Shown here: piece by piece, positions 31,640-50,290 of the stretch
How positions within the stretch are numbered: position 1 is the first letter of the stretch
Layout of the letters: each line of letters opens with the position of its first letter
Assembly (NCBI GenBank): GCA_021234155.1
Contig: JAJEKV010000005.1
Location: forward strand, 28,635,617-28,699,616
Length of the DNA: 64,000 bases
Reading direction: 5' to 3'
Source of the DNA: Isoetes taiwanensis
Lineage: Eukaryota > Streptophyta > Lycopodiopsida > Isoetales > Isoetaceae
Notes under the pieces: generated by a model
Told to the model about the DNA's origin: nothing
The model's input: only the letters and a program-made list of their open reading frames with translations
Database searches by the model: none
Translations under genes and position numbers: made by a program

Positions 31640-33880
31640 ATGGTTCCCAGCACTTCCCAGATCTCTTCTCCAATCACTCTTTTGGAAATGTTCAAGAAAC
31701 TGGATACCACGAAATTTGTTAAAGTTTTGAAGGAAGTGGATGCCAAGAAACTGGGCAAGGTATTACCCGATCTCCCTCATTTTTTGTGCTCAACATTTCT
31801 TTCACTTGACTTTCTAAAACTGCTTTTTGCAGAAGGGAATACAAAAATTCAATGAGAATGCCCCATTGCTCACGGAATTGACAAAGAATATTTGTCAAGT
31901 TGCAGGCCAGGCACCGTTAGTTGGTATTTGCTTTCAAGCTCTTGTGATAATCCTACAAACTGCTGAAGATTATATGGAAATTGATGAAAAGGCCAACGAA
32001 TTAATAGAATATGCAAATTTCTTAAAAAAATCCATGGAAACAATCGAAAATGCAGGCGGAGGTGATGAATACTTGAAAGAAAATTGTCTGGCATTGCTCT
32101 GTGCAGAGGCCTTTGAGTTTCAGAATAAGAATTCCAGGTAGGTACTTACCTATTTATTTTATTTCCTTTGTGGTTTCTATTCATTTTCATTTGATGTTTG
32201 TGAGAAACAGACCCGTAGAGAAGTAAACCCATGACTTATTTGTAAACTTATTCAGAGCTGTAATTAGATGTATTGTGTAGAGTAGAGAGTTTAGAGGTTC
32301 CCATTCAATAAATCAAACAATGAAAGTAAGACTGGAAATGTTTGCGGTTCAGGGAACAGAGGTGGGCAAAGTGCATGTGTGGCTTCGTTTGTGCCCAATG
32401 TGACACCAAGACGCTTGATGGCCTTGCCGCCAGACTGAGAGACATGAACCAGAAGCTTTCCTTGCACTGTCAATTACTTATTTTGAATCAAGCCCCTAAG
32501 CCCAGCCAAGCCCCACTTGCTAATTCTTCTCTCAAGCTTAATAACAAATTCGTGACAGAGCCAGGAGTACGAGTCCTTGCTCTGTGTGGAATGGGAGGCC
32601 TTGGAAAAACCACCTTGTTGACAGCCTTACACCAAGACTTTCCAAAGAGTGGCAATCAGGCCAAGGCTTTTATAGAGGTGGGGAAAGACCCTGCCAATTT
32701 AATGGAAATTCAAACACGGATCTTGCAAGGATTGGAAAGCATAAATGAGACGTTCACAACCACTCAGCAAGGTCGGATTAGATTGGAGGATTGCTTAAAA
32801 GGTTTAAAGGAAAAGGGCTCAAATTTGTGCTTGTCAATCGATAATGTGTGGAAAGTAAGACATTTGAAAGAACACCTACATGTTCATCTTCCAAAATCAA
32901 GCTGTTTAATGATCTCCACACGCTCCAAAGAAGTAGCCAAGGAGTTTGGTGATATTTGTTGTCCAAAAAATGCAAATGCATTCCGACTCTTTCAGCCGAA
33001 CATGATGGGCACACAAGAGGCAGAACAATTGTTTATGAAGTGCGCAGAAATTGAAAATAAGAAGGAAGAGTCGGATCTCATAAATGAAATAGTCCCACTA
33101 TGTGGTGGGCTTCCATTGGCAATTAAAACATATGGTAGCTACTTTAGAAGGCTAGAGAGACGCAAGGAAACAGAGTGGAGAAAAGTTAAGCAACGGATCT
33201 TGACATCTACCGAATCCCCATCAACTGCGGATGACGATGACCAAGTTCCAGAATGCTTAGAACCTAGCATTGATGCTCAAATTGAGAAGGTGCAAGATGC
33301 ATTCATTGATGCCGCGCTTTTTTGGCGTGGACAATCACTTGAAATGGCCCGAAGTGCTCTATATGTTCGGGATGAAGACATTTTGGATGTTTTGTTGCAA
33401 GAGTCCATTATTTATGGCAACAAAGATTTTTCCAAGAAAGATCGACGCGAGGAGAAGCTCACTTTAGAATGCCACGACTTGTTTTTTGCCATTGCAGAGA
33501 AGCGTGCAAAGAGAAAGGGTTGGAAATATTTGACTACGTCAGAGGCAAGTGCTTGTCCCTTTATAGAAATCTATGCCCTTGTTCCCCTTTGTAAGCAACT
33601 TTCTTACTTGAATGCAATGCAAATTCTAAAAGAAACATACACTCGCCAAGATTTGGAATTTCTACCAGAAGGAGTGCGTGCAATACACATTCGCCGAGAA
33701 TCTACCATTGATTTGGGTTTTCTACCATTGCAAAAGAATCTACTTTACCTAAGATGCGATGCTAATTTTACTACGTGTGGAGCGTGTAACACTTCAGAAG
33801 ATAAAAACCATGATCTCAAAGCATTCCAATTATCTCAGAGTGTCGATCTGAGTCTTCTCCAGGTTTGGAATGTTGCCTCT
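31640..33880 (+). CDS. NB-ARC immune receptor (NLR), 5' part: N-terminal helical domain and NB-ARC
   Basis: Three exons fit in phase: 31640-31759 (ends AAG|GTATTA), 31833-32137 (ends CCAG|GTAGGT) and 32353 to about 33880. The first 140 residues are helical, without TIR motifs, and resemble the RPW8/CC-type four-helix N-termini of non-flowering-plant NLRs. The NB-ARC follows with P-loop GMGGLGKTT (32588-32614), kinase-2 LCLSIDNVW (32825-32851), RNBS-B LMISTRSKEVA, GLPL as CGGLPLAI (33101-33121), and ECHDLF in place of MHD (about 33467). Such proteins bind ADP/ATP and oligomerise to trigger defence. The exon reads into leucine-rich sequence, then meets an intron-like GT and, at 33938, a CACTA transposon. 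The LRR piece resumes at 45.7 kb. Exons here are intact, but expression across an 11.8-kb insertion is uncertain. Confidence 0.8.
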
Positions 33881-33934
33881 TACAAGAAAATGGTACATAT
33901 ATATGAAATCAAAATAACTAATCTATTTTCAACA

Positions 33935-33937
33935 TGT
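33935..33937 (+). repeat. Target-site duplication TGT (left)
   Basis: The three bases before CACTACAAG are TGT, repeated directly after the right terminus at 45707-45709. A 3-bp duplication is the signature of CACTA insertion. Confidence 0.85.
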
Positions 33938-33969
33938 CACTACAAGAGAATGATGGCTAAACGTCACAA

Positions 33970-34320
33970 CATTAGTCAGAGAGCCTTCGTAAAACAGACA
34001 AGTGTCCAAACCTTATTCCTGACGAATGAAGTGACGAGTTTTATCTGACGAATATTAGTCAGAAGATTAGTCAGAGTAAAAGTCATGTTATTAGTCATAT
34101 GTTTAGTCACTCAATTAGTCACCAGTTTAGTCAGATGACTAGTCAATGTAATAGATAGAATTTTAGTCAGTTACTTAGTCAATTTATTAAATAGCTAATT
34201 AGTCAGCTAATTAGGTACGTAATTAGTCAATGTATTACTTAGATATTTAGTCATGATATTAGTCAAATACTTAGTCAATAAGTTCGTCATAGTAATAGTT
34301 AGAATATGGGTCAATTATTA
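33970..34320 (+). repeat. CACTA subterminal repeat array, left
   Basis: Roughly fifteen copies of (A/T)TTAGTCA or close variants (CTAGTCA, TTAGTCG), spaced 8-25 bp. They are the presumed sites for the TNPA-like protein. Orientation on the plus strand is the same as in the right array. Confidence 0.85.
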
Positions 34321-34657
34321 GTGGTGATTAGGTTGGTGGGGCAATAGTCGGGCAGTTGGTCATGCAATAGTGGACAATCGGTCGGGTTATTTAGCCACAT
34401 CATTAGTTATTAGTCGGAAGAGCGGTCAATATATAATTCTATTAACATTCATTACAATAGACATATGACAATTAACATTTGTTACAACGGATAAAATAGG
34501 CAATTGACATTTGTGAACAACGGATACAATAGAATAAAAAGCAAAATGTAAAGATAAAACTTGATTACACATGAGTAGTCAAAACTTAAGACTTGATTGC
34601 AAATCAGTCGTAGTCATTACAAAGTCATTACTGATTAAAGATAGTAAAAGCAAAGTC

Positions 34658-37600
34658 TTAGAAACACATCAAAACTTGATAGTTCACATCTTGCGGGTAC
34701 TCATGTCGACCTCTTGACTTTCTAAGTGACTTATATTGCGCAATGTTTAGTGCAATAGTACCATCTACAAATTGAACCCAAATTTCGCCTTTGCTCTTCT
34801 TCCTTTTTTTTTACGGAAGTGGATGCATTATCACTTCTCTTGCTGCCCTCCTCCACATCATTTCTCTTCTTCATAACCATCTCTTCCATACTCCTTGCAC
34901 TCTCAATCCCTTCTCCATAAGCTGCGTCGTAAAAAGCATCAATGTCAGCAGCATCTTCATGTGGCAAATCTGGGGCGTCTACACGACAATTTAACTCCAC
35001 CGCAATCCCCACATCATCTTCCACATCTTCCGCTCTAATCTCCTCTACTCCATCCACTTCTTGCTCACCTCCATCAACTACATGGGCATTCTCGCCTTCC
35101 TCAACTCCATGGGCTGGCTCGCCTTCTAGATCCACATGAACTAGTGCTTCTTCTTCCCTTCGATCTTCGATGCCTTGGTTTTTGCTTCCTAAAAGCGAAG
35201 TTGTTTAAGGTGAGAGAAGGATATATATATCGAGAATGCTACAAAGTAGAAATTACCTTGGTTGTTTTTCTTCTTATTGCTTATTCTTCCTTTAAGCCCT
35301 TCTTCCCTAAGAAATGCAGCGCCTCAAACTACAAAAGAACAAAAATCAGAAATTTTGAGCTCTCACATTTGATCGGAAAAGAACAAAAAATCGAAATCGA
35401 GAACTAAACAAAACAAAAGAAAAGCTTACATTTCCGGGAATTCTCCCTTGACAATTAGAGATTCTCGATATGCCTGTATGATCTCTTCTTCTTTATCATT
35501 TGCCATTGTTGTTGCGAAGGGTAAAAGCACCCCCAATCCGGAACTACATAAGATTAAAAAAATAGAGTTAGTCAAGAAAAATCTTTGCTTGCTGATCCAA
35601 ATCCAGGCAATCAATGAAACTCTAGTTGTATTAATCAATCAAATGAAATGTTATTACAGTTAAAGAGACCATCGAGAATGGCCAAGGCGGTTTCTTTGTC
35701 TTTTAACGTAAGCAAGCGGTGACTTTTCAAATAAAGTTCTTCTCCATCAGACCTTGCATGGGTTATGAAAATGGGGACAAGGGAAGCATTTGGAATAATG
35801 AAGGTTACCTGCATGAGATGCGGTGTATCCTTCCTATTGTGTATCGGGTAAAAGCATGTTAGGGTGTACCACTTTTGGAACCTGCAAAAGTACATACACT
35901 AGGTACTTCAGAACTGGGTACTTTCTCATTTTTCTTTTCATTAAAACTAGTACAAAAGTCCAAAATAAAAGTCAAGGACGTGTTAATATTTAAAGGTAAG
36001 ATAAATATAATGCTATCTAAGCCCAAAATATATATAAAAGTTCTAAAATGTACCTTTTATTGACATATTACACAGGTACCCAGTACCCAGTCCTGGGTAC
36101 CTTTTTAGGTACCTTTTTAGTCACTAAATAATACTTTTTAAGGGACACCCTAACATGCTTTCACCCTATCAAGATGCCCAATGCTTTTAACAGCAGAGCA
36201 ATTGATTAAGGGCCTCCTTACAACACGATCAGCTTATCCTTTAATAGTTGCTGGGAAGCTAACAGCTTCAAATTCCATGGGTATGCTCTATGTTTATGCA
36301 ACTGGACCTATTCCAACTAAGCTGGGCCACCTTTCGGAACTGCAATACATTGACATGTCATGGAACATGCTAAATGGTTCCATTCCACCAGAGCTTGGAA
36401 ATTGCAGCAAAAGTTTTTATATGGATCTGAGTCACAACCTTTTCATAGGCAATATACCAACAAATATGCAAAGTCTTACTTCCTTGGAGATCTTGAATCT
36501 TGAAGCGAATTCTTTGACTAGTGGAATCCCAAGCTTTGTTTCTGCATTTGAGAACCTCCTTGACCTGAGATTAGGAAGCAGCAGACTTCAAGGCCGGATA
36601 CACGGTGATATTGGGAGCCCTAGGACATCTAAGCATCTAAGCCTAAATCAGCTAGATGGCGTATACCACGAGCTAGGTGACACGGATTTACTTGAGAATA
36701 TGGATTTATCACATAATAGGTTAGCTAGGTGACTGGATTTACCGGAGAATATGGATTTATCACATAATAGGTTAGCAGGTACCATACTTGAAAGTTTGTC
36801 TGGCATGGAATCTTTGCAGTCTGTAAATATTTCATTCAACAAGTTATGAAGAAATGTTCCTCAGTCATGGAATAAATTTTTAAGTAGTTCCCCTGGATCA
36901 TTTGTGGGCAATGCGGCTCTATGCACAAATGCATCATGTAGCGGAGCTAATGTTGGAGGAAGGAAAGGAGGTTTAAATAGGGGCATTATTGCTGGAATTG
37001 TCCTTGGAGGATTGGTAGTTTGTCTTCTGATTCTAGTTTGTATAATTGTTTTAGCATATCGGAAAGGTCCAGCTTACAAGTTTGAGAGCTCTAGGGTTCT
37101 TTATGCTGATACCTCAAGAAAACTATCTGTGGAAGATGTGCTGGAAGCAACGAGGAACTTGAGCAATGAAAATATGCTAGGCAAAGGTGCTCATGGTGTG
37201 GTATACAAAGTACTCACAAAGTCTGGGCAAGTTGTTGCAGTGAAGAAACTGGAGCTCTCAAGTAAAACAGCAGGGGGAACATTTGAAAGGGAGCTGGAGA
37301 CTGCAGGCAAGGTGAAGCATAGAAACCTAATAAGAGTAAATGGATACTCTGCACAAGATGGAGTTGGATACATTTTGTATGAGTATATGCAACAAGGAAG
37401 TCTATGTGATAACCTGCATGGCTCAAGGTCTCATCCACTTGACTGGAATATGAGATACAACATGGCATTAGGCACTGCTCATGGACTGGCATACCTGCAC
37501 CATGACATTCGCAACTTCTTTCTATGGTTAATCCAACAACTTCTTTCTATGTTTGTGCTCTGTTTGGCATTAATATGCTTTATGGCTATCCAGATTTATT

Positions 37601-39262
37601 GCTATGTACTCTCAGATTTTTTGTGTTACAATACTTTAGGAAGGAGCTGTCCATGTATATGGTATAAGAGGAGAGGCTAGCAGCAGTTTCCATGCATCAC
37701 TAAGACTCTGATTTCTAATATACAGGTTCACAAGAGCGTTCCCTGCGCCAAGCTTGCATCTTTGATGGATGATTGCAATGTGGATAGGTAAACTCTGGAA
37801 CTGCAAAATTTGCAATTGCTAACCTCAAAATGCCCAAAAGAGATCACTGTGCCTTTGTTTGATTCCATAGTAATGGTATAAGAACCCACAAGCTCATTAT
37901 TTCAGGAATGGGACTAAGGTGCATCAGACAACATCAACGAAATGAAAATACTATTTAGAGCTTGCCCATTAGCATGGAACTTGAATTCACGACAACATAT
38001 CAGCAAATGCATGCCATATTCCAGTTCTATATAGAATTTTCAATTCGGATAGAAGATTGTCCAGCAAGTAAAGAAAGTTGGAGATGGGCGGGACCAATAG
38101 TTTTTGGGAATTTAGTTTCTAAAAAAGGTTTCCTGGAAATCAGTGTCATTGGCGAACTTTTTGGCCATAAAAGTTTGCTCAGCCTGTATTCAAGTATTAA
38201 AAAAGGAAAATGCAAGAGAAGTTACCCCAGTACTTACATAATCCGCAGCGATTCCAGCATGTCCCCGCCGTCCTATTCTTTCGCCATTAGGTTTTCTTGC
38301 TGCCGCTGCCTTTTTCTGTTGGTGACGTGGCTTCTTTTTATTTGCAAGAAATCTCTCCCACACAGGATCTTTCACGTGGTTTGGGGCTATTTTCTTATCA
38401 CTCCTACGCAACCAATCCCTACACAACATGACAACAATGTTAAATAATGAAGAAATCATAAAACATGATAAAATACAATAGTAGCTTACTTCCAATGATT
38501 AAATATTCGAGCTGCCCTCTTTAGTATATCAGAAGCAAATAAACCTTTACCAAAACGCTTCTCCATGTGTCTCACTAGTCTCTTTTTGGAGATCTCATCC
38601 ACCTTCTTCCAATCTTTGTCAATCTCTGTGCAATATACTTTCACCGCATGGCCAAGGGCTGTCTTCCATGTCTGTCCATTCTCATCTAGATGTATCTCCC
38701 CTCCTTGCACCATAGTCACCTATAATATACAACGAATAGTTATTAATAATAATGCACAATAAAATACAATAATAATATCCAACAATGCATTCACAAAATG
38801 CAAATAAGCATCTACCTTTTCCTCTTTAGGAAGACGACGAAAAGTAACTTCATAATCTTCATTTGGCTCCTCGTCCCCTTCATCACTTATGCTATCATCT
38901 GTTTTTTCATCTTCTTCTTCATTCTCACTTTCTGGCGCATTAATGGATCTTACACTTGTCTCACTGCGACAACAAATGAAAGGACAGGTTAGCAAGTGCA
39001 TTTTAAAACATGAAGTGCTTCACCAAATACCTTGATCTTCTCTGGTTTTTGGACAAGCTTGAACCTCGCCTTCTGTTAGAGGTATGCGATGGAGTAGCGA
39101 CATGTGCAAGCTGCTTGTCAAGGGCTGCCTTAAATTTTAACAGGTCAGACTGGTCCATTTCTGCAATTATTGCAGTGATGTCTCTAGAATCCTCTTCGTC
39201 ACTGTCCTCATGTCTTCTTCGTGAGGTTTCCCCCCTATTTTTTGAGCTCTCCCTTGGAGCCA
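34658..39262 (-). CDS. TNPA-like (plant transposase_24 / Ptta type) gene of the CACTA element
   Basis: Exons with good GT-AG borders on the minus strand are 39031-39262, 38816-38963, 38490-38719 and 38238-38418. After a long gap come 35430-35543, 35257-35306 and 34658-35188. The 38490-38719 exon reads WKTALGHAVKVYCTEIDKDW and FGKGLFASDILKRAARIFNH; the next reads DWLRRSDKKIAP and ends with a basic KAAAARKPNGERIGRRGHAG. This is the layout of the En/Spm TNPA-related DNA-binding proteins, which bind subterminal repeats to bring the ends together. The last exon is acidic (VDGVEEIRAEDVEDDVG). It needs a shift at a run of nine A near 34802-34812 to read the plausible tail KGEIWVQFVDGTIALN. The start exon was not fixed. 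The receptor kinase pseudogene and a MITE lie in the 2.7-kb gap. Confidence 0.65.
35842..36170. mobile_element. MITE nested in the CACTA element
   Basis: A 321-bp body (35846-36166) begins GGGTAAAAGCATGTTAGGGT and ends with its complement; the 25-bp terminal inverted repeats match at 23 positions. TATC flanks both sides (35842-35845 and 36167-36170), fitting a 4-bp target duplication. The interior has no gene and carries repeated GGTACC-type phrases near its right end. It lies between two TNPA-like exons and directly upstream of the receptor kinase pseudogene. The superfamily is unassigned. Confidence 0.75.
36181..37510 (+). pseudogene. LRR receptor-like kinase fragment captured in the CACTA element
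   Basis: The first part has plant-type LRRs (LGHLSELQYIDMSWNMLNGS, then IPPELGNCSK and IPTNMQSLTSLEILNLEANS). A juxtamembrane stretch with a predicted transmembrane helix (GIIAGIVLGGLVVCLLILVC) comes next, and then a kinase N-lobe: glycine loop GKGAHGVVYK, lysine VAVKKL, helix C glutamate in FERELETAGK, HRNLIRVNGYS, and helix E with GLAYLHHD. It stops there, before HRD, DFG and the rest of the C-lobe. The open frame continues to 37680 in unrelated hydrophobic sequence. A 52-bp tandem duplication (36674-36777) shifts the LRR frame and TGA occurs at 36847. Gene order and orientation (plus strand, between minus-strand TNPA exons) indicate capture of a host gene piece. Confidence 0.8.
36674..36777. 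repeat. 52-bp tandem duplication in the LRR
   Basis: TAGGTGACxxGGATTTAC followed by GAGAATATGGATTTATCACA occurs twice, 52 bp apart, with a few changes. Since 52 is not divisible by three it alone destroys the LRR frame. Confidence 0.8.
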
Positions 39263-39269
39263 CTAAAAA

Positions 39270-40466
39270 ACATAAGCCAAAAGTTAGATTAAGCAAAAGT
39301 AGTCTGCTGAACAAATAAGAGGACATAGCAATGCAGCAATCAAGAAAGGAATGGAATTGGAAAGAAGCAAGCAAGCAAGCAAGCAAAGACAGCAATCAAG
39401 GAATGGAGTGGAATGGAATTGCAATCAAGCAAGCAAAGACAAGACAGGTATTTGAATTGGAAAAAATTATCAATGAACAAATCGTGATGATGTTCCTGAA
39501 ACTAGACTTTCCTCCTTTGAGCGGAAATGTAAATTTCAGAAGAATGTATTTCGGATCATCATGCTTTTGTAGCCTCGAAACCAGACTATCCTGAAACCGG
39601 ACTTTCCTGAATGAGAACCAAACTGAGCTTTCTTAAAGAACTGTATATCTGAATGCTGCATCCATAGAAAAATCGGGAGACCTCTTGTTCATTGGACGTT
39701 TCTTCAATGAAAGAGACGGAAGGCACGCTGGACGATGACAGATAAAAAAAAATTTACTTAGGGTTAAAAAATGCTTACTTATTACGTCTCTCTCTTTCTC
39801 TTTCTAGCTTAACCTTGCTCAACCTTGCTTAACCTTTCTCTCACGCTGGCTCAATCTCGATCAGGGCGCCTCGATCTCCATCAAGAAAACAAGCGGTAGT
39901 GAATTTGGCGGGCGGATTATTAGGTAAGAGAAAATTAGGTAAGAGAAAATGAAGAAAAAAGAACGTCACAAATTTTTTTCCCCTGTTTTTATCTGACGTT
40001 TTGTTAGGCACTAGATTCGTCACGGGTCCATTCTATTACAGTTGTATCACTACAACTATAGAATAAATATAACACAAGGAAATGCATCAAGCCAAGCTTT
40101 TGCATAAATATATTAACATGATGTTCCCCATAAGGATAAATAGCAGTACTATGTTCCCCATAGTTGTACCGAAGTTGTACCATTCTTTTGTAAAGAAGAT
40201 TGGACTAGGAATTTGTAATTAGCCTGGCATGCTTGCTTCGCAAATTGTCCCGGGGATTGCGCCATGCCACCGATGTATTGCATACTGACGACGTGAGGTA
40301 TTCATCATTAAAATACGTAGTTGCTAAACACGTGTCCAGTATTAAAATGCTTGTATTTTATTATTGTTATATGTGTGTTAGTGGGTTATATACTATTGGG
40401 TTTTTTGCAGGGCTTATATCTGTGCACCTTCAATGACTCCGTCATGAGCACCTCAGTGGCTCGGCA
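39270..40466. promoter_or_regulatory. Divergent intergenic region of the CACTA element
   Basis: This region lies between the minus-strand TNPA-like and plus-strand TNP2-like genes. It contains an AAGC microsatellite near 39365-39385 and no domain-bearing frame. By position it should hold both promoters, and untranslated first exons are likely, since the plus gene shows a splice acceptor (TTTTTTGCAG) near 40410. Confidence 0.4.
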
Positions 40467-43400
40467 ATGAGTAGGTCTGAGCACCCTAGTGGCTCCGCAA
40501 TGAGCACCTCTGAGCACCCTAGCAACTCCGCTATGAGCACCTCCGAGCATCCCAGTGGCTCCACTTCGTCAACCAATCAATCTTCGATGCCGTCTATTGA
40601 TGAGCTACGAGCATTAAGGTTTTGATCTCTCTAACTCTTTCTTTCTCATTTTGGTTTGGGCAAACATTTGATCACTTGGGTATTTATCGTTTGCCTATAG
40701 AAATGAAACTTCTTCATCTTCCACATCAAGAAAAAGACAAGCAACAAAAACTTGGCTTCGAGATGATCCATTGGAGCGACTTGCTAGGCAGTACGACAAC
40801 TGTTGGTGCAAGCAATGTAAAGGCACTAGCAGAAGAATGTATACCACGAGACGAGATCACAAAATGAAGTACGGTTTGATGCCAAATGCTCCAACTCCGT
40901 CCGACCTTGAGTTAAATGCACGACAAGAAGCAGATGAGGTAACAGTGTGTATTAAGCATTTCTATTATTTATTCCATATATTATTCTAATCCTCTTTTAA
41001 TATATACAACTTGTCATAGTATTTGGACATGCTTCACAAAAATCGAACTTCTTTGAGACATCGGATAGCCCCTGTGTCGTCCTAGATCATCGGGTTCGCT
41101 ACCTTGGTATTCTAGAAGTTCTAGTTCTAGTTCAAAAGAGACTTCGGGAAGTTGAGAGAGGTCGCATACGAGGGGCAAGTCAGTGGCTACAAAAAATTAA
41201 GAACCATTTCAAGAAAAGCTCGCATAGCCTTGTTCATGCATGTGAAACAAAAAATGACATGGCTGAACAACTTCCCTCTCATCTTAGAGCCTCTATTGTT
41301 CCATTTGTTCGATCATCCCTAGGTTGTTGGGAAGGGGAATTGCCTCCAATGTTGAAAGAATTTATATATTGGGGCCATAAGTACATGATTGCACCTTCTT
41401 TAGAAATACCAGAAGCTGGAAGGGGTTTGTACATAATGGAGCACGTGAAGGTCCCATCTGGACACTCAACTGTGTTGATGGTGTTTGGCGGACCAAAGTA
41501 TCCCTGGGGTTTATGGCATAAACTTGCTTCTTTTATGCCTAGTATGTCTACTTATGCCATGGCATTGAATGCGGCATCTTTGAGCGAGCAGAGAGATCGT
41601 GGAGAACATACCCCACGCAGTGCGCGCATATACATTGATGGCCGGCCAAGTGTTCATGGAAATATTGCAGCACTTATAAATAGCTCTCGTGGTCGTCCCG
41701 AATTAACAAATGCAGAATTTGAAGAGACTACAGAATATGATTCGTGTTACATGAATGGGTATGTTGGACCGTATGTGAGAGTTTGTGCCATACGCAACCT
41801 CCGTCCTGGAGAGGAATTGTTTGTCAACTATCCTTTCAAAAGAGAGACCCCAAGGCGAGTAGAACGTAAGAAGCGTGGTGAACCAATTGTTGTGCCCTAC
41901 GGAAGGAAGCGTTGCCTAGATTTATAGTCATGTAGCATTGCCATTTATACAAACGTTTATGATTTTAATGATGTTAATCATGTAGTGATATTGCTTAATG
42001 GTTGTGCCTAGATTTATAATCATGTAGCATTGACATCTAAACAAAATGATGAATATTTTTCTTTTTTATGGTGTATATGGACTTTGAAGATGTTAATCAT
42101 GTAGTGATATTGCTTAATGGTTGTGCCTAGATTTATAATCATATAGTGATTTATAAAGTGATATATAGTGATTTTTCTTCATATAGCATGTTTATAGCAT
42201 GATTTTTCTGCATATAGCATGTTTATAATCTTATTTCCAATGCATGTTCCTTCTATATTTTTCTTTTTCTTTTTTATCATCACATGTACAAACTCCCACA
42301 AACAAATAAGTTTGGCTTGTGAATTTGCAGTCAAGCGATGATGGGAATGAAAACTCATGTGCTCAAAGTGGCTTTCATGCTGAGAGTGGTTTGATGGAAG
42401 CTATACAAAATTACTTCCCAACCAATAACTCTAATGGTGATGATGACGGTGAGAGACCTATCACACTTTTAGAGACAGAGACCAGCAAACCACTATACCC
42501 AAATGCAAAGATATCGCGTCTCGCTGCATGCATACTCATCCTCAACCTACAACACAAATTAAACTGGAGTAATAATAGTGTAGATGATCTTCTAAGGTGA
42601 GTAATTTGGTTTGAGTTGCAAGTTTTCATTCGTCATTTTTTTTTCTCACTTGATATTTCTTTTTTTTTTATTCTAACAGTTTGCTAGCTGACTATATACT
42701 TCCAAGTGATCATTGTCTTCCAAAATCAAGGAGGGGCATTAAACAACTTTTGCAAGAACTAGGTTTGCAATACAAATGCATTCATGCATGTGTAAATGAT
42801 TGTATACTTTTTCGCAATGAATACAGTGAGATGAATATAGTGATGAATGTATGTACTGGTCTGAATTGAAGATTGCACATCTATTGGATCCCATGCATAT
42901 TTTTAAGAATGTAAGCCATTCACTTTGGCGACATCTTACAGGAGATTGGGAGACTCTTAATGCTAGAAATGATTTAAAGGATAACAACATCAAAACAGAA
43001 TTGTGGCCTATCATAGAAGAAGGCAAAGCTCCTCGCTTTCGTCGAGGTCCTTGGGTATTGAAAAGGGATGAACTCAAACAAGTGAAAAACTCTATTAAAA
43101 CTCTTCGCACTCCAACTGGTCATGGCTCCTCCCTAAGAAGGGCATTCACAAAAGATGGAGATCTCACCGGCTTAAAGTCGCATGATTGGCACAACTTTCT
43201 ACAGGTATTTATACTATAGGATAAACAATATTGACAACTTGTATGTACGACTAATTAATTGTTTTTTTGTCTCGTTACAGTATATTCTCCCATGTGCCTT
43301 GGAGAATTGCCTCACGCCTTCTATCCGGAAGGTCATCTATAGACTCGCTAGCTTTTCTAGGTGGGTGTCTTCTAAAGAGATTGTAGCTGCGGATATTCCC

Positions 43401-44971
43401 ACTATGGAAATAGAGATTGCAGAGATATTATGCCAGTTAGAACACTTATTTCCAACTAGCTTTTTTGATCTTCAGGTACGTAGCTAGTTGAATAAGTTAC
43501 ACATTGGCAATTACACGTTATTAAGTGTGATCATCAGGTACACTTGTTGGTGCATTTGCCACAAGAGATTTTGCTCGTGGGTCCAAACCCCTCTAGATGG
43601 ATGTTCTTTTTGGAGAGATATATGAAGGTATTAAAAGGCTTTGTGCGCCAGATGGCTAGGCCTGAGGGATGTATGGCAGAAGGACACCTTGTTCAGGAGA
43701 CATTATTTTTCTTAACAGATGCCACAACATCAATAGATCCAAATGCACCAAAGATTTGGAAGAAGGAGGCTCCTGATTGGTTAGAAGGTGAAGTTTTACA
43801 AGGTCAGGGTAAGCAGCGAAGGTTAAGTGACGAGATGTTTGAAGGCATCAACAAATTCGTATTGAACAATGCAGATGGTCTCACCAGGTGGGTGGAACTC
43901 TATAAAGTTGAGAAGGCACAAAGAGATAATGATAGAAAAACATATGCTGCAAGGAATCGTCGAGGACGTCATAGGAGAGTACAATATCCTCCAGAACTAA
44001 GGCCCCTCCCTGATAATCCCCCCTCTTGGTGGCTATCTGAAAAGCTTTGGGAGGCTGAAGGCAATGGAGAAAAAATACAAGAAGATGATCTCAACATTGC
44101 ACTTGGGTGTAATAGATCAGTACGTCTGAATTTGTTATTGTTATTGTTATTGCATTCATAATATGTGACACTTGAGTTTTTATTCAATTTGCAGGCTAGG
44201 TTCCATAATTCAATGTGGGCTTATGGTCAACATTTTCGAATTGATAGCATTGACAAAGCTCGCGTCACTTGTGATTCTGGAATAATTGCCTCATTTGACC
44301 AAAAAAGTCGAGCAAGCGCTAGAGATGATAATCTTGTTGATGGAGAGCTTGAATATGTCGGAGTTATTACTGATATTATTGATGTGGATTTTCGTTCATT
44401 TCGACAGACCATCCTAAAAGCGAAATGGTTCAAGCCTCTATACCGCGGAAGAAATCAAACAGTGCGGCCACATCCATCTGGTTTTTTTGAAGTTGATTCC
44501 ACGCATGTATTAGTAGATGTAAGTGAGCCGTTTGTGTATCCACAACAAGTTCAGCAAGTATTTTTCCATGTCAACCCTCAAAACAGTACATGGTGGATTG
44601 TAATCCCTACAGAACCAACATCACGTAGACACGTTCCTAATGTAACCCTTGAGGAAGAAGAGGAGGAACACGAGGAAGATTTAGAGCATGGCCAAGAATT
44701 GGAATTTGTGGAATGTGAGGAAGATATAGAGCATGAGCAAGAATTGGAATTTTTGGAGACACAAAATCTAGAAGATTATGAAGCTCAAGGGCAAACCACC
44801 AATGAAGAATTGAGATCACCAATGCACTCCCCAATGGCAGAAGATTATATTGAAGAGGAGGAAGACGTTGACCTTCAAATGCCAAATATACGACGAAGGC
44901 TGCTTTTACAACTAGACGATGATGAATGGAATGATATACAAGATGATATCTTGGATGAGGATTTCATATGA
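40467..44971 (+). CDS. TNP2-like CACTA transposase, catalytic core deleted
   Basis: Exons that join in phase are 40467-40618, 40701-40938, 42331-42596, 42680 to about 42850, then a frame change to 43204, followed by 43281-43475, 43538-44119 and 44195-44971. The first exon has 11-residue MSTSEHPSNSA repeats and the second a CWCKQCKG...H zinc-binding motif. The 42.7-kb exon ends with the TNP2 hallmark YKCIHACVNDCILFRNEYSE. The next recognised block is LLDPMHIFKNVSHSLW, which in complete proteins lies several hundred residues later, so the DDE core between them is missing. The DUF4218 part (FFDLQVHLLVHLPQ, GPNPSRWMFFLERYM, ARPEGCMAEGHL) and the DUF4216 part (YVGVITDIIDVDF, PQQVQQVFFHVNP) are intact. 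The tail is acidic. TNP2 cuts and joins the ends; this copy should not. Confidence 0.8.
41259..41927 (+). CDS. SET-domain protein encoded inside the CACTA element
   Basis: The 222-residue frame from the first in-frame ATG contains SET motifs in order: PEAGRGLYIMEHV (51-63), DGRPSVHGNIAALINSSRG (127-145) and LRPGEELFVNYPF (181-193). It ends in a basic tail (RRVERKKRGE). SET domains transfer methyl groups from S-adenosylmethionine to lysines. The usual NHSC step reads NSSR, so the canonical H is absent while the GEEL...Y part is kept. The frame is open back to the splice acceptor at 41019 without an ATG. It lies in the same orientation between TNP2 exons 40701-40938 and 42331-42596, whose phases fit each other without it. 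It could be an independent gene in an intron or an alternative 3' exon, but phase to the upstream exon does not match. No pre-SET or post-SET cysteines are evident. Confidence 0.75.
   Translation: MAEQLPSHLRASIVPFVRSSLGCWEGELPPMLKEFIYWGHKYMIAPSLEIPEAGRGLYIMEHVKVPSGHSTVLMVFGGPKYPWGLWHKLASFMPSMSTYAMALNAASLSEQRDRGEHTPRSARIYIDGRPSVHGNIAALINSSRGRPELTNAEFEETTEYDSCYMNGYVGPYVRVCAIRNLRPGEELFVNYPFKRETPRRVERKKRGEPIVVPYGRKRCLDL
41905..42160 (+). repeat. Tandem repeat beginning at the SET stop codon
   Basis: GCCTAGATTTATA(G/A)TCAT(G/A)TAG recurs at 41915, 42006 and 42125. GATGTTAATCATGTAGTGAT and ATTGCTTAATGGTTGTGCCT are shared between the first two units. The unit boundary includes the last codons and the stop of the SET frame, so the 3' UTR expanded by duplicating its own beginning. 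Confidence 0.8.
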
Positions 44972-45265
44972 CAAAAGACTAGAGATCATATTTCACACTG
45001 TTGTGTTCTATATGTATCACAATTAACTTTTTTTTTTTTTAAGTATGTATTTCATATAGTGCTCGAATTATTTTTATTCCTAATCGTTTTCATGTTTAAA
45101 GTTACATTGATAGGAGAAAAAAAAGCAAAGTTCCTTACAATGGAGTTGTTGAACATGTTTTCAGACTAGAAAACACACTTGGGATAAGTGTTCATGATAT
45201 TGGATAAAGTAGACATGATATTGGACAATTGATATCATATATGACGAGTATACAATGTTAAACAC
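44972..45265. other. 3' flank of the transposase gene
   Basis: AT-rich and non-coding, with a T run near 45030. It leads into the right subterminal array. Confidence 0.4.
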
Positions 45266-45269
45266 CTTA

Positions 45270-45660
45270 TAAGTCAATCAATTACTCATAATCTTAGTAA
45301 CAATATTAGTCACCTTTTTACTCACTTTTTTAGTTTGACTATTAGTCTGTAGCTATAGTCAAATGTATAGTCAGATATTTAGTCAACCAATTAGTCAAAC
45401 TATTAGTCATGCATTATAGTCAAACTTATAGTCAGACATATCGTCAGAAAGTAACAGTCAGCATATTAGTCAGTGTAATGGTCATGACAATAAACAATGG
45501 TTTAGTCATTGTTATAGTCAAAATATTCGTCAGGTAAAACGTCAATATGCATTTAGTCATAAATTTAGTCAGTTTATTAGTCAGTATTAAACGTCAGTTT
45601 TTTTCGTCATATGATTAGTCACTATAAACGGCACATAGACATTTCACAGATAGTTTTTGA
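45270..45660 (+). repeat. CACTA subterminal repeat array, right
   Basis: About fifteen TTAGTCA or TAGTCA heptamers at short intervals, in the same plus-strand orientation as the left array. Only the outermost part (CTGACTAAAAGTAGTC near the end) includes the inverse form. Confidence 0.85.
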
Positions 45661-45706
45661 GCCTCTGACGAATTATCTGACTAAAAGTAGTCATTCTCTT
45701 GTAGTG

Positions 45707-45709
45707 TGT
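45707..45709 (+). repeat. Target-site duplication TGT (right)
   Basis: Matches TGT at 33935-33937. Confidence 0.85.
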
Positions 45710-45726: not shown

Positions 45727-46005
45727 GCCTACAAGTCTTGTCTGTTGGAGGCCTTAAATGTGGAATAGAATCAACACAGGTACATCCCCAACTTCTTTCC
45801 TTTTTGTTTAAATGCTTTAGCAACTTGCGTTTTATAGAAATTGGAGGAAATGAGCAATTACACATGCTTCCAAATTCTCTAGGCAACTTAGAGCATTTAC
45901 AAAACCTTCGACTTTTGGACCTCTCTTGCTTGAATATGCTTCCAGCCTTTTCTAAGCCCTTGATATCTTTAAAAAACATCAATCTCCTTTTGCGGCGACC
46001 TTTTG
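45727..46005 (+). pseudogene. LRR part of the interrupted NLR gene
   Basis: After the transposon the frame LQVLSVGGLKCGIESTQ continues as FSNLRFIEIGGNEQLHMLPN, then LGNLEHLQNLRLLDLSCLNM and FSKPLISLKNINLLL, which are NLR-type leucine-rich repeats. An acceptor-like TTTCCAG precedes it at 45720-45726, so before the insertion this was probably the next exon of the NLR at 31640. I could not make the phase across the junction fit with one simple splice. At about 46000 the LRR stops and a GC-rich tandem array begins, so the receptor's C-terminus is lost or far away. Confidence 0.65.
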
Positions 46006-48385
46006 CTGGGTCGCCCGGCTTCGCCCAAGCTTGTCAGACCACTCTTCGGTACTTGCCCATACTGGAGGCGGCTCTTGCTCTCGGTGCGCCCGGCTTCGCC
46101 CTTTGCTTGATACGCTTCGGCCCATTTACCCATACTGTAAGAACTCGACCTCTCCGGGTCGCCCGGCTCGCGGCTTTGCTTGTTTCGCTCGGCCATTTGC
46201 GCCAATGGGATCTCGACCTCTCCGGGTGCGCCCGGCTCGCCCTTGCCCTGCCCCCCTTCGGCCCGACGCGCCCTAATGGGGCTCGGCCTCTCCGGATGCA
46301 CCAAGCTCGTCCTTTGCAAACCGCTTCGGCCCAGCCTTGCTTCTAGGTAAGCCATTCTCTCCGGGTGCACCCGGCTTCGCCGCGCGCCTGCCAAAACCGC
46401 TCGGTATGCCCAATCTAGGGAGGCTGATCTCTCAGTCACGCCAGCTCGCTTGCCCTGCCCGGAAACCTCTCAGCCTTTACCCGCCTATGAGTAGCTCGAC
46501 CTCTCAAGTCGCCGGCTTCGCCCGCTGCCCCTTTCGGCCAGCGCACGCCCTAAAGTGACTCCTCCCGGGTGCACCATTTCAGCCGGCTGCGGAAACACAC
46601 TTCGGCCAGCCCCATACAGGTAGCTCGTCCTCTCCGTCGCGGCTGCGGCACGCGTTTTCGGCCTTGTTGCCTTCTGTAGGCTTCGACCTCTCCGGGTCAT
46701 TCGTAGAAGCTGCCTTGATCCTTTCGGCCCTTTGCACTTGTGTGTGGCCAGTCGACCTGCCGGGTCGCTTGGCTTGTAGAAACTGCCAAGGCAGCCTCGC
46801 TGCATACTGCAAAAATCTCCGGTCACGCCCATTTCGGCCCGGCTGCCCGATACCTTTCGACACATTTGCCCATACGAGAAGCGCTCATCCTCTCACAGGT
46901 CGCCCGGCCTCGCTACTTGCAGGCGTGGCCCGGCCCGTAGCGTTCGACCACCGGGTCGCATATTCGCCCTTTGCCAAAGAGCCTTTCGACCCTTTACTTA
47001 TCTATGTGGTGGCTAAAATCCTCTCCGGGTCGCCAAGCTCGCCCCGACGCAGGCTACGCTTCGGCCCAGCTGCGCCTGGCAGGCTCGTCAGATGCGCCGG
47101 CTAGCAGCCTGCCCGACCACGCTTCGGCCCTTTACGCGTTGATGTTGCCATTCAGGATCGCCCACATTTCGCGGCTGCCCGAAACACCTTCGGCCTGCCG
47201 CCGTAGCGCTGGAAAAGCATAAAGTCGCCCGGCTTCGCCCGGCCCTGCGGAAACCGCTCGGCGGCGCATGCAATTCTTCCCTCTGGAATTTTTGTGCTTG
47301 CCTGCCCAGGCGCCTTCGGCCAGCTGCCCAGCGTTAGCGGTGCGCAAACCTCCGGGTGCACCCGGCTCGCGCCTACGGCTCACGCGCTTCGGCCCACTAC
47401 AGCGTTAGCGGTGCTCGCGGAAACTGCAGGTGCGCCAGCTTCGCACTTTGCCGGAAACCACGTTCGGCCCATTTGCCCGCCACAGGGTTTCGACCTCTCT
47501 GGAGTGCGCCCGGCTCATGCGGCACACCCGACCGCTCGGCCCATTTGCAGGCTTGTATTTCGACCTCTCGAGTGCGCCCGGCTGCGCCCTTTACCCGACC
47601 ACGCTACCATTTGGCTACCCAGCGACCAGTGCTCATCCTCGAATTAAGCCCGGCTTTCGCCCGGCACCGCGAAACCACCTTCGGCCCGCTGCCCGCCCTG
47701 TGGATGCTTCGACCTCTCCCGTGCGCCCGGCTCGCCCGGCTGCAGGCTGCGCTTCGGCCCCACCGCGCCCTGCAGTTCGACCTCGATGCGCCCGAAGCTC
47801 GTTGCTTTGCAGAAACCACGCTTCCGGCCAGCCCCACGCCCTAGAGGAATTCGGCCTCTCCGTCGCCAACTTACCCGGCTACGCGCTTCGGCCAGCTGCC
47901 TTCCCTAGAGAGGCTTCGGCGGCCTCTCCGGAGTGCGCCTTATTTCGCGGCCTCCCGACCACGCTCGGCCAGCTGCTGCGCCTTGGCGCATCTACGGCCT
48001 CGCGGTCGCGCGGCTCGGCACTGCCAAACCGCTTCGGCCAGCTATCGGCGTTAAGCATCTCGGCTCAGTGCGCGCGGCTTCGCGGCCTGCGTACGCTGGG
48101 CATTTGCGCGTTGATTCGGCCTCCGGGTCATGGCTTCGCGCCTGCGAACCTTCGGCCCGTACGCCACAGGCCAGCTCCTCTTGAGTGCACCCGGTTTCGC
48201 CTTTTGCAGGCAGCCGATATTTGCGCATACAGGGCGGCTCTTTCTCTTGAGTGCACCCATTTCGCCCCTTTACCCCCGGTTCCTTGCCCTCCCTTGACAT
48301 CAGCTCGACTATCAGAGTCGCCCGACTCTCGCCTTTTGCTTGACATGCTTGTTGCCAGACTCTAGTCACAATGTAAACCCTCACC
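46000..48385. repeat. GC-rich minisatellite, about 68-bp unit, roughly 35 copies
   Basis: A composite unit reads roughly CGACCTCTCCGGGTCGCCC, then GGCTTCGCCCTTTGCC, CGCTTCGGCCCATTTGCCC and a short variable end. The CCTCTCC anchor recurs near 46150, 46217, 46287, 46356, 46426, 46500, 46561, 46629 and 46687, a spacing of about 58-74 bp. GC content contrasts sharply with both flanks. Long open frames in several phases (up to about 310 codons at 47430-48365) follow from GC richness and have no domain. Units can form GC hairpins such as CCCGGCTTCGCCCGG. Confidence 0.85.
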
Positions 48386-50290
48386 CAGCTCTATGTCCTG
48401 CATGACACACTTGGTGCTAGGGCCTGCTAGCCTCCAGTCACCACATAACCTTAAAACTTGAGGAAATCACATAACCCGATATGAGGGAGGACCCAACACA
48501 TGCATCACTTAAATCAAAATATGATGTGTACATTCACAACGTTTCGAACTTTTGACCTTTTAATGTCATGTTGTACATTTAATAACAAGACGTATGATGT
48601 ACTTATAGTTCACTTATGTTGTTTTATCGTTTCAATGTGTGCCCCTTGCTTATTGGAGTGGAAGAAAGATAAGCTTGTTGCTACTACATATTCTTGCTTC
48701 AAGTACTATTCTTTTTCTGTTTAAAAATGACATGGATGTAAAACTTGGAATTTGAATCACATATCCTCCATAATATTTTCCATGTGCTTGATGTGTTGTC
48801 AAGGCAGCCAGTTTGACTTCATAATTCCATCTTCCTTCTTTCACCTTTCATGATTCATTTGCATGCTTCCATCTTTCAGCCAATGGGATGGTTTATTTCT
48901 TCACATAACCTCTCCATATTATATCTATATATTCATGCCAGGCATGCCAATCCTGACATCAAACAAAAGATGCTAATAAAGTTCTATCCTTTTATTTCTT
49001 ACTTCCTTGATGTGCCGACCTATTCTATCATACAACCTTTGCATGATATTCATAGGTAGTTTGTTCCCGGGCCTGACAACATTTTAAGCATTCCTAGCAG
49101 TCATACGTTCTAAATAATAAGAAGCATTAAAATCCATTGAAGTTCTACAAACTTTAAGGTTTAATAGCAAGGATCAGTTTTCATAAATGTCTTGCTAAAA
49201 TTTCTTAAGGATGTGCTTCCCACATTGTTGGAAAATACTTGGTAAACCTACGACCATTTCAAATGAGAGAGATTTGCTCTTTTCCATTTTTCCAATTGCC
49301 ATATCCTCTTGTTCAATTCCTTGCCTTTCAATCAATTTGAACCATCCTTTTACTTTTCTACCTTCCAAAAAACCCAATGGCAATATTTCTATAAGGTTTG
49401 CAAGTCATTATTTCCATGTCGTATGACTCCTGTACATTCACATCTTAAGCTTTGAGTCCACATGATCATGTCACATCAGTCAAATGATAACATCAGCCAT
49501 CCAAAAAGTTATGCCATTGCTAAGTTTTAACTAATAAGAGTTTTGCCACCTCAATCTGCCAAACGCAGCACTCTATTTGCCACCCCATCTTGCCACCTCA
49601 CTATTCTATGCCCTTTTTGCCTTTTTTATGTAAGAAAACAAAAATCGCAAAAGTAATCGACATTCGTGCATGAGGGTTGTGCTCTTGCCATTAACACCCA
49701 TTCCAGCCTAAAATTTATCCTATTTTGTAGCCCATTTTCTAAGCCAAATCCTTCCCTCCCTCCCTCAGGCACACACACACATAATCACATGCATAAGGGC
49801 ATCCCATGTTAGAGATAATGGGCGCCTGCAGGCCCTTATGCGGGGTAAGGGCCTGGCGAGCCCGGCAGGGCGAGCCTGATTTGCACCCCGTGTAAGGGCA
49901 TGCGGGCGCCCATTTTCTCAAGTAAAGTTGGGGGAGAATATTTCCTGCCACGTGGCACCGTCGTAGCCACAGAACTTTGATCAATTCGTTATCAGCCATC
50001 GTCGGAGGAGAGGAAGGCAGCATCGGAGGAGAGGAAGCGAGCTGCAGCAGATTATTTGTTTTAAGATGGCTTGAAATATGGCGAAATATTCTCCCCCCTA
50101 ATTTTATGTCCTTATAGGTGTTTGTGAAAAGAAATTGAAGTGAAGGGCTACTTATACCTTTGATGAGTTTTTAGCTCAAGGCTTTGAGATCAGAAGCAGC
50201 TTTTTGCCAATTGCTTTCTTCATGGCTTTCCTGATTTTGAATCAGTTGGAATCATCATTATGACTTTATAAAGCACTTCAATGCTCTATT
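48386..50290. other. Gene-poor interval with one foldback
   Basis: No recognised gene. A minus-strand frame at 49195-49383 (KVKGWFKLIERQGIEQEDM) looks protein-like but is unidentified. The foldback at 49817-49914 is listed separately. A CA-rich stretch lies near 49770-49780. Confidence 0.45.
49817..49914. repeat. Foldback with 30-bp arms
   Basis: Left arm 49817-49846 (AATGGGCGCCTGCAGGCCCT...) pairs with 49885-49914 (...GGGCATGCGGGCGCCCATT) at 26 of 30 positions across a 38-base loop that is itself GC-rich (CCTGGCGAGCCCGGCAGGGC). It could be a tiny MITE or a small-RNA precursor. Confidence 0.7.

Follow-up and report, generated by a model that had tools for sequence, protein, structure and literature searches.

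Why does a gene with a SET domain lie between the transposase exons of a plant transposon: is it cargo that a single element picked up from its host, or a working part of the element itself? The question is raised by a CACTA (EnSpm) element in a 64-kb stretch of the Isoetes taiwanensis genome, the whole of which we call the window. An earlier note, made from the letters of this stretch alone, had described a 222-codon SET frame between TNP2-type exons within perfect CACTA ends, and had proposed that the element acquired a chromatin modifier of its own.

The element and its SET exon

The element has both terminal inverted repeats and a 3-bp TGT duplication, as expected of CACTA/EnSpm (Table 1). 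The perfect ends described earlier are indeed present: the 13-bp sequence CACTACAAGAGAA has two matches in the 64-kb window with up to one mismatch allowed, against a chance expectation of 0.08. The insertion site is an NB-ARC gene (PF00931, 86 bits), whose disease-resistance-type frame (32342-34048) continues into the 5' end of the element. Downstream of the SET exon, Transposase_21 (PF02992) has no match in the window frames scanned, and in one related copy, L022, homology resumes at 42854 after about 700 extra bases that contain transposase sequence. Most of Transposase_21 has therefore been lost from the window copy, which is a defective, non-autonomous derivative and itself incapable of the function that we propose below.

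Table 1. Features of the CACTA element, numbered from the first base of the window.
Feature	Position	Strand	Basis
TGT target-site duplication, 5' side	33935..33937	.	read from sequence
CACTA (EnSpm) element, defective copy, 11.8 kb	33938..45706	+	13-bp ends, TGT duplication
Terminal inverted repeat, 5', CACTACAAGAGAA	33938..33950	+	pattern match
N-terminal exon, CxCxxC...H; inferred common start of transposase and SET isoform	40702..40938	+	donor GT in 20/21 copies
SET exon, terminal, own stop; frame broken upstream of 41259 in window copy	41020..41927	+	acceptor AG in 20/21 copies
222-codon SET frame, intact	41259..41927	+	open reading frame from ATG
SET domain PF00856	41568..41831	+	frame residues 104-191, profile 43-104 of 105, E 3.3e-6
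TNP2 exon after SET, phase 0	42331..42600	+	matched through 42600 in 16/20 copies; acceptor AG in 12/16 readable
Transposase core, start; homology of most relatives ends at ~42839, a deletion in the window copy	42681..42839	+	copy alignment
Later transposase part (DPMHIFKNV...), past the deletion	42854..43204	+	copy alignment
DUF4218, first part	43368..43478	+	PF13960 27.2 bits, cut-off 27
DUF4218, second part	43547..43726	+	PF13960 57.3 bits
DUF4216-like part of last exon	44402..44602	+	PF13952 26.2 bits, below cut-off 30.6
Terminal inverted repeat, 3', CACTACAAGAGAA	45694..45706	-	pattern match
TGT target-site duplication, 3' side	45707..45709	.	read from sequence

The 222-codon frame lies between TNP2-type exons as claimed, and it matches PF00856 with 27.9 bits (curated cut-off 22.4). 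The larger SET exon (41020-41927) proposed around it stands in part: it follows an acceptor AG and begins in phase 0, but its first stretch, 41020-41258, is not open in the window copy, where the frame continuing from 40938 meets a stop at codon 21. The intact part of the window's SET exon is therefore the ATG-started 222 codons only, and the exon terminates in its own stop ahead of the TNP2 exons.

The element holds further sequence upstream of these exons. A fragment with leucine-rich repeats and a protein kinase (receptor-kinase-like, 36181-37680) is matched, at 97%, in only one (L011) of 20 compared stretches from copies of the window's family, and is a host gene piece captured by one subfamily. 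The 321-bp stretch at 35846-36166, which may be a small mobile repeat, occupies other places in L010 and L011, and in L022 its orientation is reversed. On the minus strand, another gene-like region (38190-39395) has about 80-97% DNA identity in many copies of the family and no Pfam match above cut-off in the frames tested, and may perhaps encode a TNPA-like protein of the element.

Copies, diverged lineages and selection on SET

In a DNA search of the genome that holds the element, 40 of 201 candidates were scored and every one of these matched at 81-100% identity; 20 of the 39 listed places besides the window were compared (lineage A). The N-terminal exon and the SET exon stand in the same order in all 20, the N-terminal exon of L027 having a deletion at its end. 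Within the compared stretches, the next TNP2 exon goes unmatched through 42600 in L012, L013, L014 and L026, the first of which has transposase sequence further downstream. The alignment starts at the window's 5' end in 12 of the 20 relatives, and a CACTA end with at most one mismatch is found in 14, both ends being seen in the window copy only. The 21 copies in which the donor and acceptor flanking the first intron were counted include the window; the acceptor AG of the next TNP2 exon has been lost in L009, L011, L019 and L020. Eight relatives (L010, L012, L018, L021, L024, L025, L027 and L028) have a stop-free one-piece SET frame, that of L021 being stop-free from residue 6 on, and the whole SET exon (291-305 codons) is open from its acceptor in 6 of the 21 copies compared, the window counted among them, and not fully open in the other 15. 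One copy, L009, is 99-100% identical and retains just 40481-42839 and 248 bp from the 5' end, an instance of the recent mobility of internal-deletion forms.

A search of the genome with PF00856 gave at least 72 places. Three of those with open frames of 274-279 codons turned out, once the flanking sequence was viewed, to represent two additional CACTA lineages, B and C. In lineage B (L029 and L030), the SET is 39-41% identical to that of the window and the order is again N-terminal exon, SET, TNP2 exon and transposase; a DUF4218 region comes next in L029, with a stop inside, and would lie past the end of the L030 stretch. Lineage C (L050/L051) has a SET that is 37% identical to that of A and 47% to that of B, carries CACTACTAGAGAA on its 5' side, and has all of its detected exons open. 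The lineage B stretches contain no CACTA end and the lineage C stretch no 3' end.

A further relative, L055, lies on a 9-kb contig (CAKZGI010000455.1) of a metagenome-assembled genome labelled Trichormus, and encodes the SET protein P0015. It comprises the N-terminal exon, a 45% identical SET, the TNP2 exon, Transposase_21 and DUF4218, and its matched exons are open. The Transposase_21 genes of L055 are split by introns and thus point to eukaryotic DNA in this assembly, so that the contig is probably a contamination of the Trichormus bin; Trichormus azollae is a symbiont of Azolla ferns, and our guess is that the sequence comes from such a fern. The whole SET exon is open from the acceptor in L029, L030, L051 and L055. 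Transposase_21 scores 190.6 bits in L029, 254.1 bits in L051 and 211.5 bits in L055, and DUF4218 scores 97.7 bits in L051 and 109 bits in L055. Element-linked SET genes outside the window's family, which the earlier note had suggested looking for, therefore exist: SET occurs with TNP2/Transposase_21 in B, C and L055, and with DUF4218 in L029, L051 and L055. The SET tree and the trees of two separate transposase pieces all place B with C (support 100, 97 and 100) and A with L055. Since only three trees are possible, agreement would arise by chance in 1 of 9 cases, which makes this congruence supporting rather than decisive.

The pairing extends across the genome. A query with the lineage-C SET found at least 151 places (150 listed; 150 of 1763 candidates scored) and a Transposase_21 search found at least 167 (150 listed; 150 of 2310 candidates scored). 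For 43 of the 150 Transposase_21 places listed, a SET place from the DNA search, the PF00856 search or the lineage-C query lies upstream, within 6 kb and on the same strand. They amount to 51 pairs, a number of SET places having turned up in two of the searches; because both lists are incomplete, 43 is a lower bound. The gap is 0.88-1.46 kb in 46 pairs and 2.7-5.4 kb in five, and one more pair within 12 kb has another arrangement. When the SET places were shifted by 50-1000 kb as a control, 0.1 pairs remained on average. The other 107 of the 150 listed Transposase_21 places are without a SET match in these incomplete lists, and a requirement of SET for transposition does not follow from these figures.

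Selection on the SET exon was assessed by dN/dS (NG86). Across 11 lineage A sequences, including L017 and L023 with one stop each, 54 of the 55 pairs have ratios of 0.08-0.32 and the remaining one, L023-L025, has 0.46, with dS up to 0.92. A comparison of the window with L028 shows changes at 38 of the 507 nonsynonymous sites and at 78 of the 147 synonymous ones (Fisher p 1.2e-31). The values are 0.21, 0.33 and 0.52 in lineage B, the last two involving L047, a copy with damaged stretches, and 0.17 in lineage C. SET is thus under purifying selection, with dN/dS mostly 0.1-0.2, and neither neutral decay nor chance open frames would give such ratios.

SET occupies one and the same position in all 20 copies compared and in three diverged lineages, it is under purifying selection, and its tree agrees with those of the transposase. 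Judged from these sequences, SET has long been part of a CACTA clade and has been kept there by selection. A finding that no other copy carries SET would have spoken for a one-off event, and the opposite was found, in 20 of 20 copies and in diverged lineages. CACTA elements do capture genes, as the receptor-kinase-like fragment of the window's own element illustrates, and SET could by analogy be a functionless host fragment transduplicated by a single element; yet the kinase fragment is shared with 1 of the 20 copies, whereas SET is in all of them and in old lineages, at one place and under purifying selection, and we give this reading hardly any weight. We reject such a one-off capture from the host on the copies, the selection and the Transposase_21 pairing. 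A separate nested element was also considered and rejected, its position and exon phases being identical in four lineages. As to the nearest host SET gene, 14 of 20 stretches around PF00856 places have no match to the element-type SET at E<=0.01, and six have one.

Fold, catalytic residues and relatives of the SET protein

Profile support for SET, on which the earlier proposal depended, is not confined to the window: PF00856 scores 29.6 bits in L029, 32.6 bits in L050 and 26.9 bits in P0015, all above the cut-off. Searching the PDB by sequence gave no match for the single protein and only weak ones with a profile (best E 0.097). Modelling with AlphaFold2 predicted a SET fold in one confident model of five, the others scoring 36.9-53.7, and this confident model supports the fold as a prediction. 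The fold match does not separate SET7/9 and MLL from PRC2 and ATXR5, the former two being activating and the latter two repressive enzymes.

The usual SET motifs comprise an NHS motif with its His and a catalytic Tyr. The His is absent from all aligned relatives, which have Ser in its place except for P0026 (Asn), so that methyltransferase activity is not assured. Such a replacement would suit a SET that is no longer an enzyme and serves the element as a binding or dimerisation module. Against this, little or no variation is seen among the lineages in the Asn before the replaced His, in the DGRP-GN block and in the Tyr of the last block, and we think a purely structural role improbable. The proposal that the element acquired its own chromatin modifier accordingly gains support from the copies, the diverged lineages, the profiles and the predicted fold, with an enzymatic activity that is putative.

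A protein search with the window's frame-broken exon retrieved no relatives among 1590 candidates. A profile built from six relatives gave 14 protein matches, and a second profile gave 592 (120 listed) at E<=0.001; 14 and 11 sequences were read, and the 592 may include other subfamilies. One relative, P0006, has a transcript-style name and belongs to a eukaryote collection. Further relatives (P0019-P0033) sit on metagenome contigs of up to 65 kb, with up to 134 members, and when read whole have a Ser-rich start, as in lineage A. A viral or bacterial origin was rejected: the 24 stretches matched in a scan of viral contigs included no relatives, phage records gave no matches, and of the 78 stretches that a peptide-pattern scan picked out in prokaryote contigs one, L055, is a relative.

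A candidate second product of the element

In the window, exon 40702-40938 ends in phase 0 before a GT, and positions 41020 and 42331 are each preceded by an AG and each read on in phase 0, which upholds the claim that the TNP2-type exons join in phase without SET. The same junctions recur in A, B, C and L055, where the N-terminal exon leads in phase 0 either to SET or to the next TNP2 exon, both behind an AG and both in phase 0, and where the SET exon stops in its own frame. The N-terminal exon of the window has no Pfam match; homology links it to the corresponding exons of lineage B (E 6e-6) and L055 (E 5e-8), and Transpos_assoc (PF13963) matches the N-terminal exons of B (E 0.018), C (8e-5) and L055 (0.0072), all below the curated cut-off. 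As the phases are in frame at both junctions, a single primary transcript could yield either the transposase or an N-terminus-SET protein. The exon structure of four lineages is, in other words, compatible with in-frame splicing of the N-terminal exon to SET or past SET to the transposase core.

The SET exon also has an ATG of its own (41259 in the window) and its own stop, and an internal transcript could give 222 residues. A SET protein made in this way would act without the transposase N-terminus and would find the element via partners or not at all. We regard this as rather doubtful, since in four lineages, with SETs that share no more than 37-47% identity, the junctions around SET have stayed in phase 0 and retained their splice sites, and the whole exon is open from the acceptor in six lineage A copies as well as in L029, L030, L051 and L055.

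Plants silence transposons via histone and DNA methylation. The reading we prefer, to which we assign a probability of about 60%, is that SET is a methyltransferase-like gene of an old plant-type CACTA clade, produced as an alternative isoform targeted by the transposase N-terminus and acting against silencing. Two proteins would arise from one promoter by alternative use of terminal exons, and the methyltransferase would carry the transposase's N-terminal, probably DNA-binding, module to the ends of the element. There it might methylate a histone or the transposase, and the ends might be kept open to transcription and cutting, countering silencing in cis and in trans; these last two steps are the least certain. 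In its widest form, in which an entire clade of CACTA elements in land plants encodes a sequence-targeted chromatin writer, the N-terminus being spliced to the core or to SET and the histone state of the element's own ends being set against silencing, the proposal is tentative and we place it below even odds.

Opening of the ends is favoured on two grounds: within a transposon family, copies that evade silencing should be at a selective advantage, and the plant cases described in the available part of PMC10398659 (VANC, TnpA and MURA) act against silencing. The predicted fold would fit activating and repressive enzymes, and SET could alternatively limit the element, by a repressive mark or by restraint of a methylated transposase, and so hold copy number at a level that the host tolerates. 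Self-limiting genes would not obviously be selected among competing copies, and the plant element-encoded regulators just named work in the other direction; we consider self-limitation unlikely. On the anti-silencing reading, SET is a fixed, selected part of a multi-copy CACTA family and may let the element change its silencing by the host.

Several known systems resemble parts of this arrangement. With the usual plant CACTA/EnSpm set (TAD, Transposase_21, DUF4218 and DUF4216, in some also Transposase_24 and Peptidase_C48) the SET-carrying elements share the ends, the 3-bp duplication, Transposase_21, DUF4218 and a TAD-resembling N-terminal exon, and they differ in that a SET exon has been added between the N-terminal exon and the core. 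Maize En/Spm produces TNPA and TNPD from one element by alternative splicing, the same arrangement that we infer here, although TNPA is not known to be a SET protein whereas the SET product is enzyme-like. The parallel with primate SETMAR, to which the earlier note had pointed, is weak. SETMAR is one host gene in which a SET domain and a mariner transposase make up a single protein, whereas here SET is a gene of its own in a mobile multi-copy family, with a stop ahead of the TNP2 exons. What the two share is the pairing of a SET domain with transposon sequence (PMC9062482, in the part available).

Nearer to our case are HarbingerS and the SET-bearing MuDR of the oomycete Phytophthora (Kojima and Jurka, Repbase Reports 2014), DNA transposons that likewise carry a SET histone-methyltransferase gene (cited from the available part of PMC12730594). 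These are Harbinger and MuDR elements of another kingdom, in contrast to the plant CACTA/EnSpm elements described here, whose relatives have Transposase_21 instead of a Harbinger-type transposase and whose ends are those of CACTA. The same source, as far as available, describes TET/JBP-bearing fungal transposons, one group of them under EnSpm, which are also DNA transposons with a chromatin- or DNA-modifying enzyme, in that case a DNA dioxygenase rather than a lysine methyltransferase-like protein (PMC12730594). VANC of the Arabidopsis VANDAL elements is element-encoded, sequence-specific and anti-silencing, as proposed for SET; VANDAL is of MuDR type (PMC12730594), and VANC binds DNA and is not described as a methyltransferase in the available part of PMC10398659, where none of the anti-silencing factors VANC, TnpA and MURA is presented as a histone methyltransferase. 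The main text, so far as available, of a 2022 study of CACTA domain sets in Chenopodium and other angiosperms does not contain SET as a whole word (PMC8978399). SET on DNA transposons is thus already known, and for SET in CACTA we found no report in the open-licence PMC literature, in line with the earlier note, which knew of no such family; a Repbase entry is possible.

If the preferred reading is true, a family in which selection has preserved SET over deep divergence would provide direct evidence of transposons using lysine methylation themselves. One genome holds copies whose SET is open, copies whose SET is broken and Transposase_21 elements with no SET detected, and so offers a testable case. 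Transposon genes may also account for some of the 'SET domain' predictions found in plant and metagenome annotations.

Directly past the element, at about 46000-48400 of the window, the sequence is by eye G+C-rich, with long frames overlapping on both strands and repeated CCGGGTCGCCCGGC-like words.
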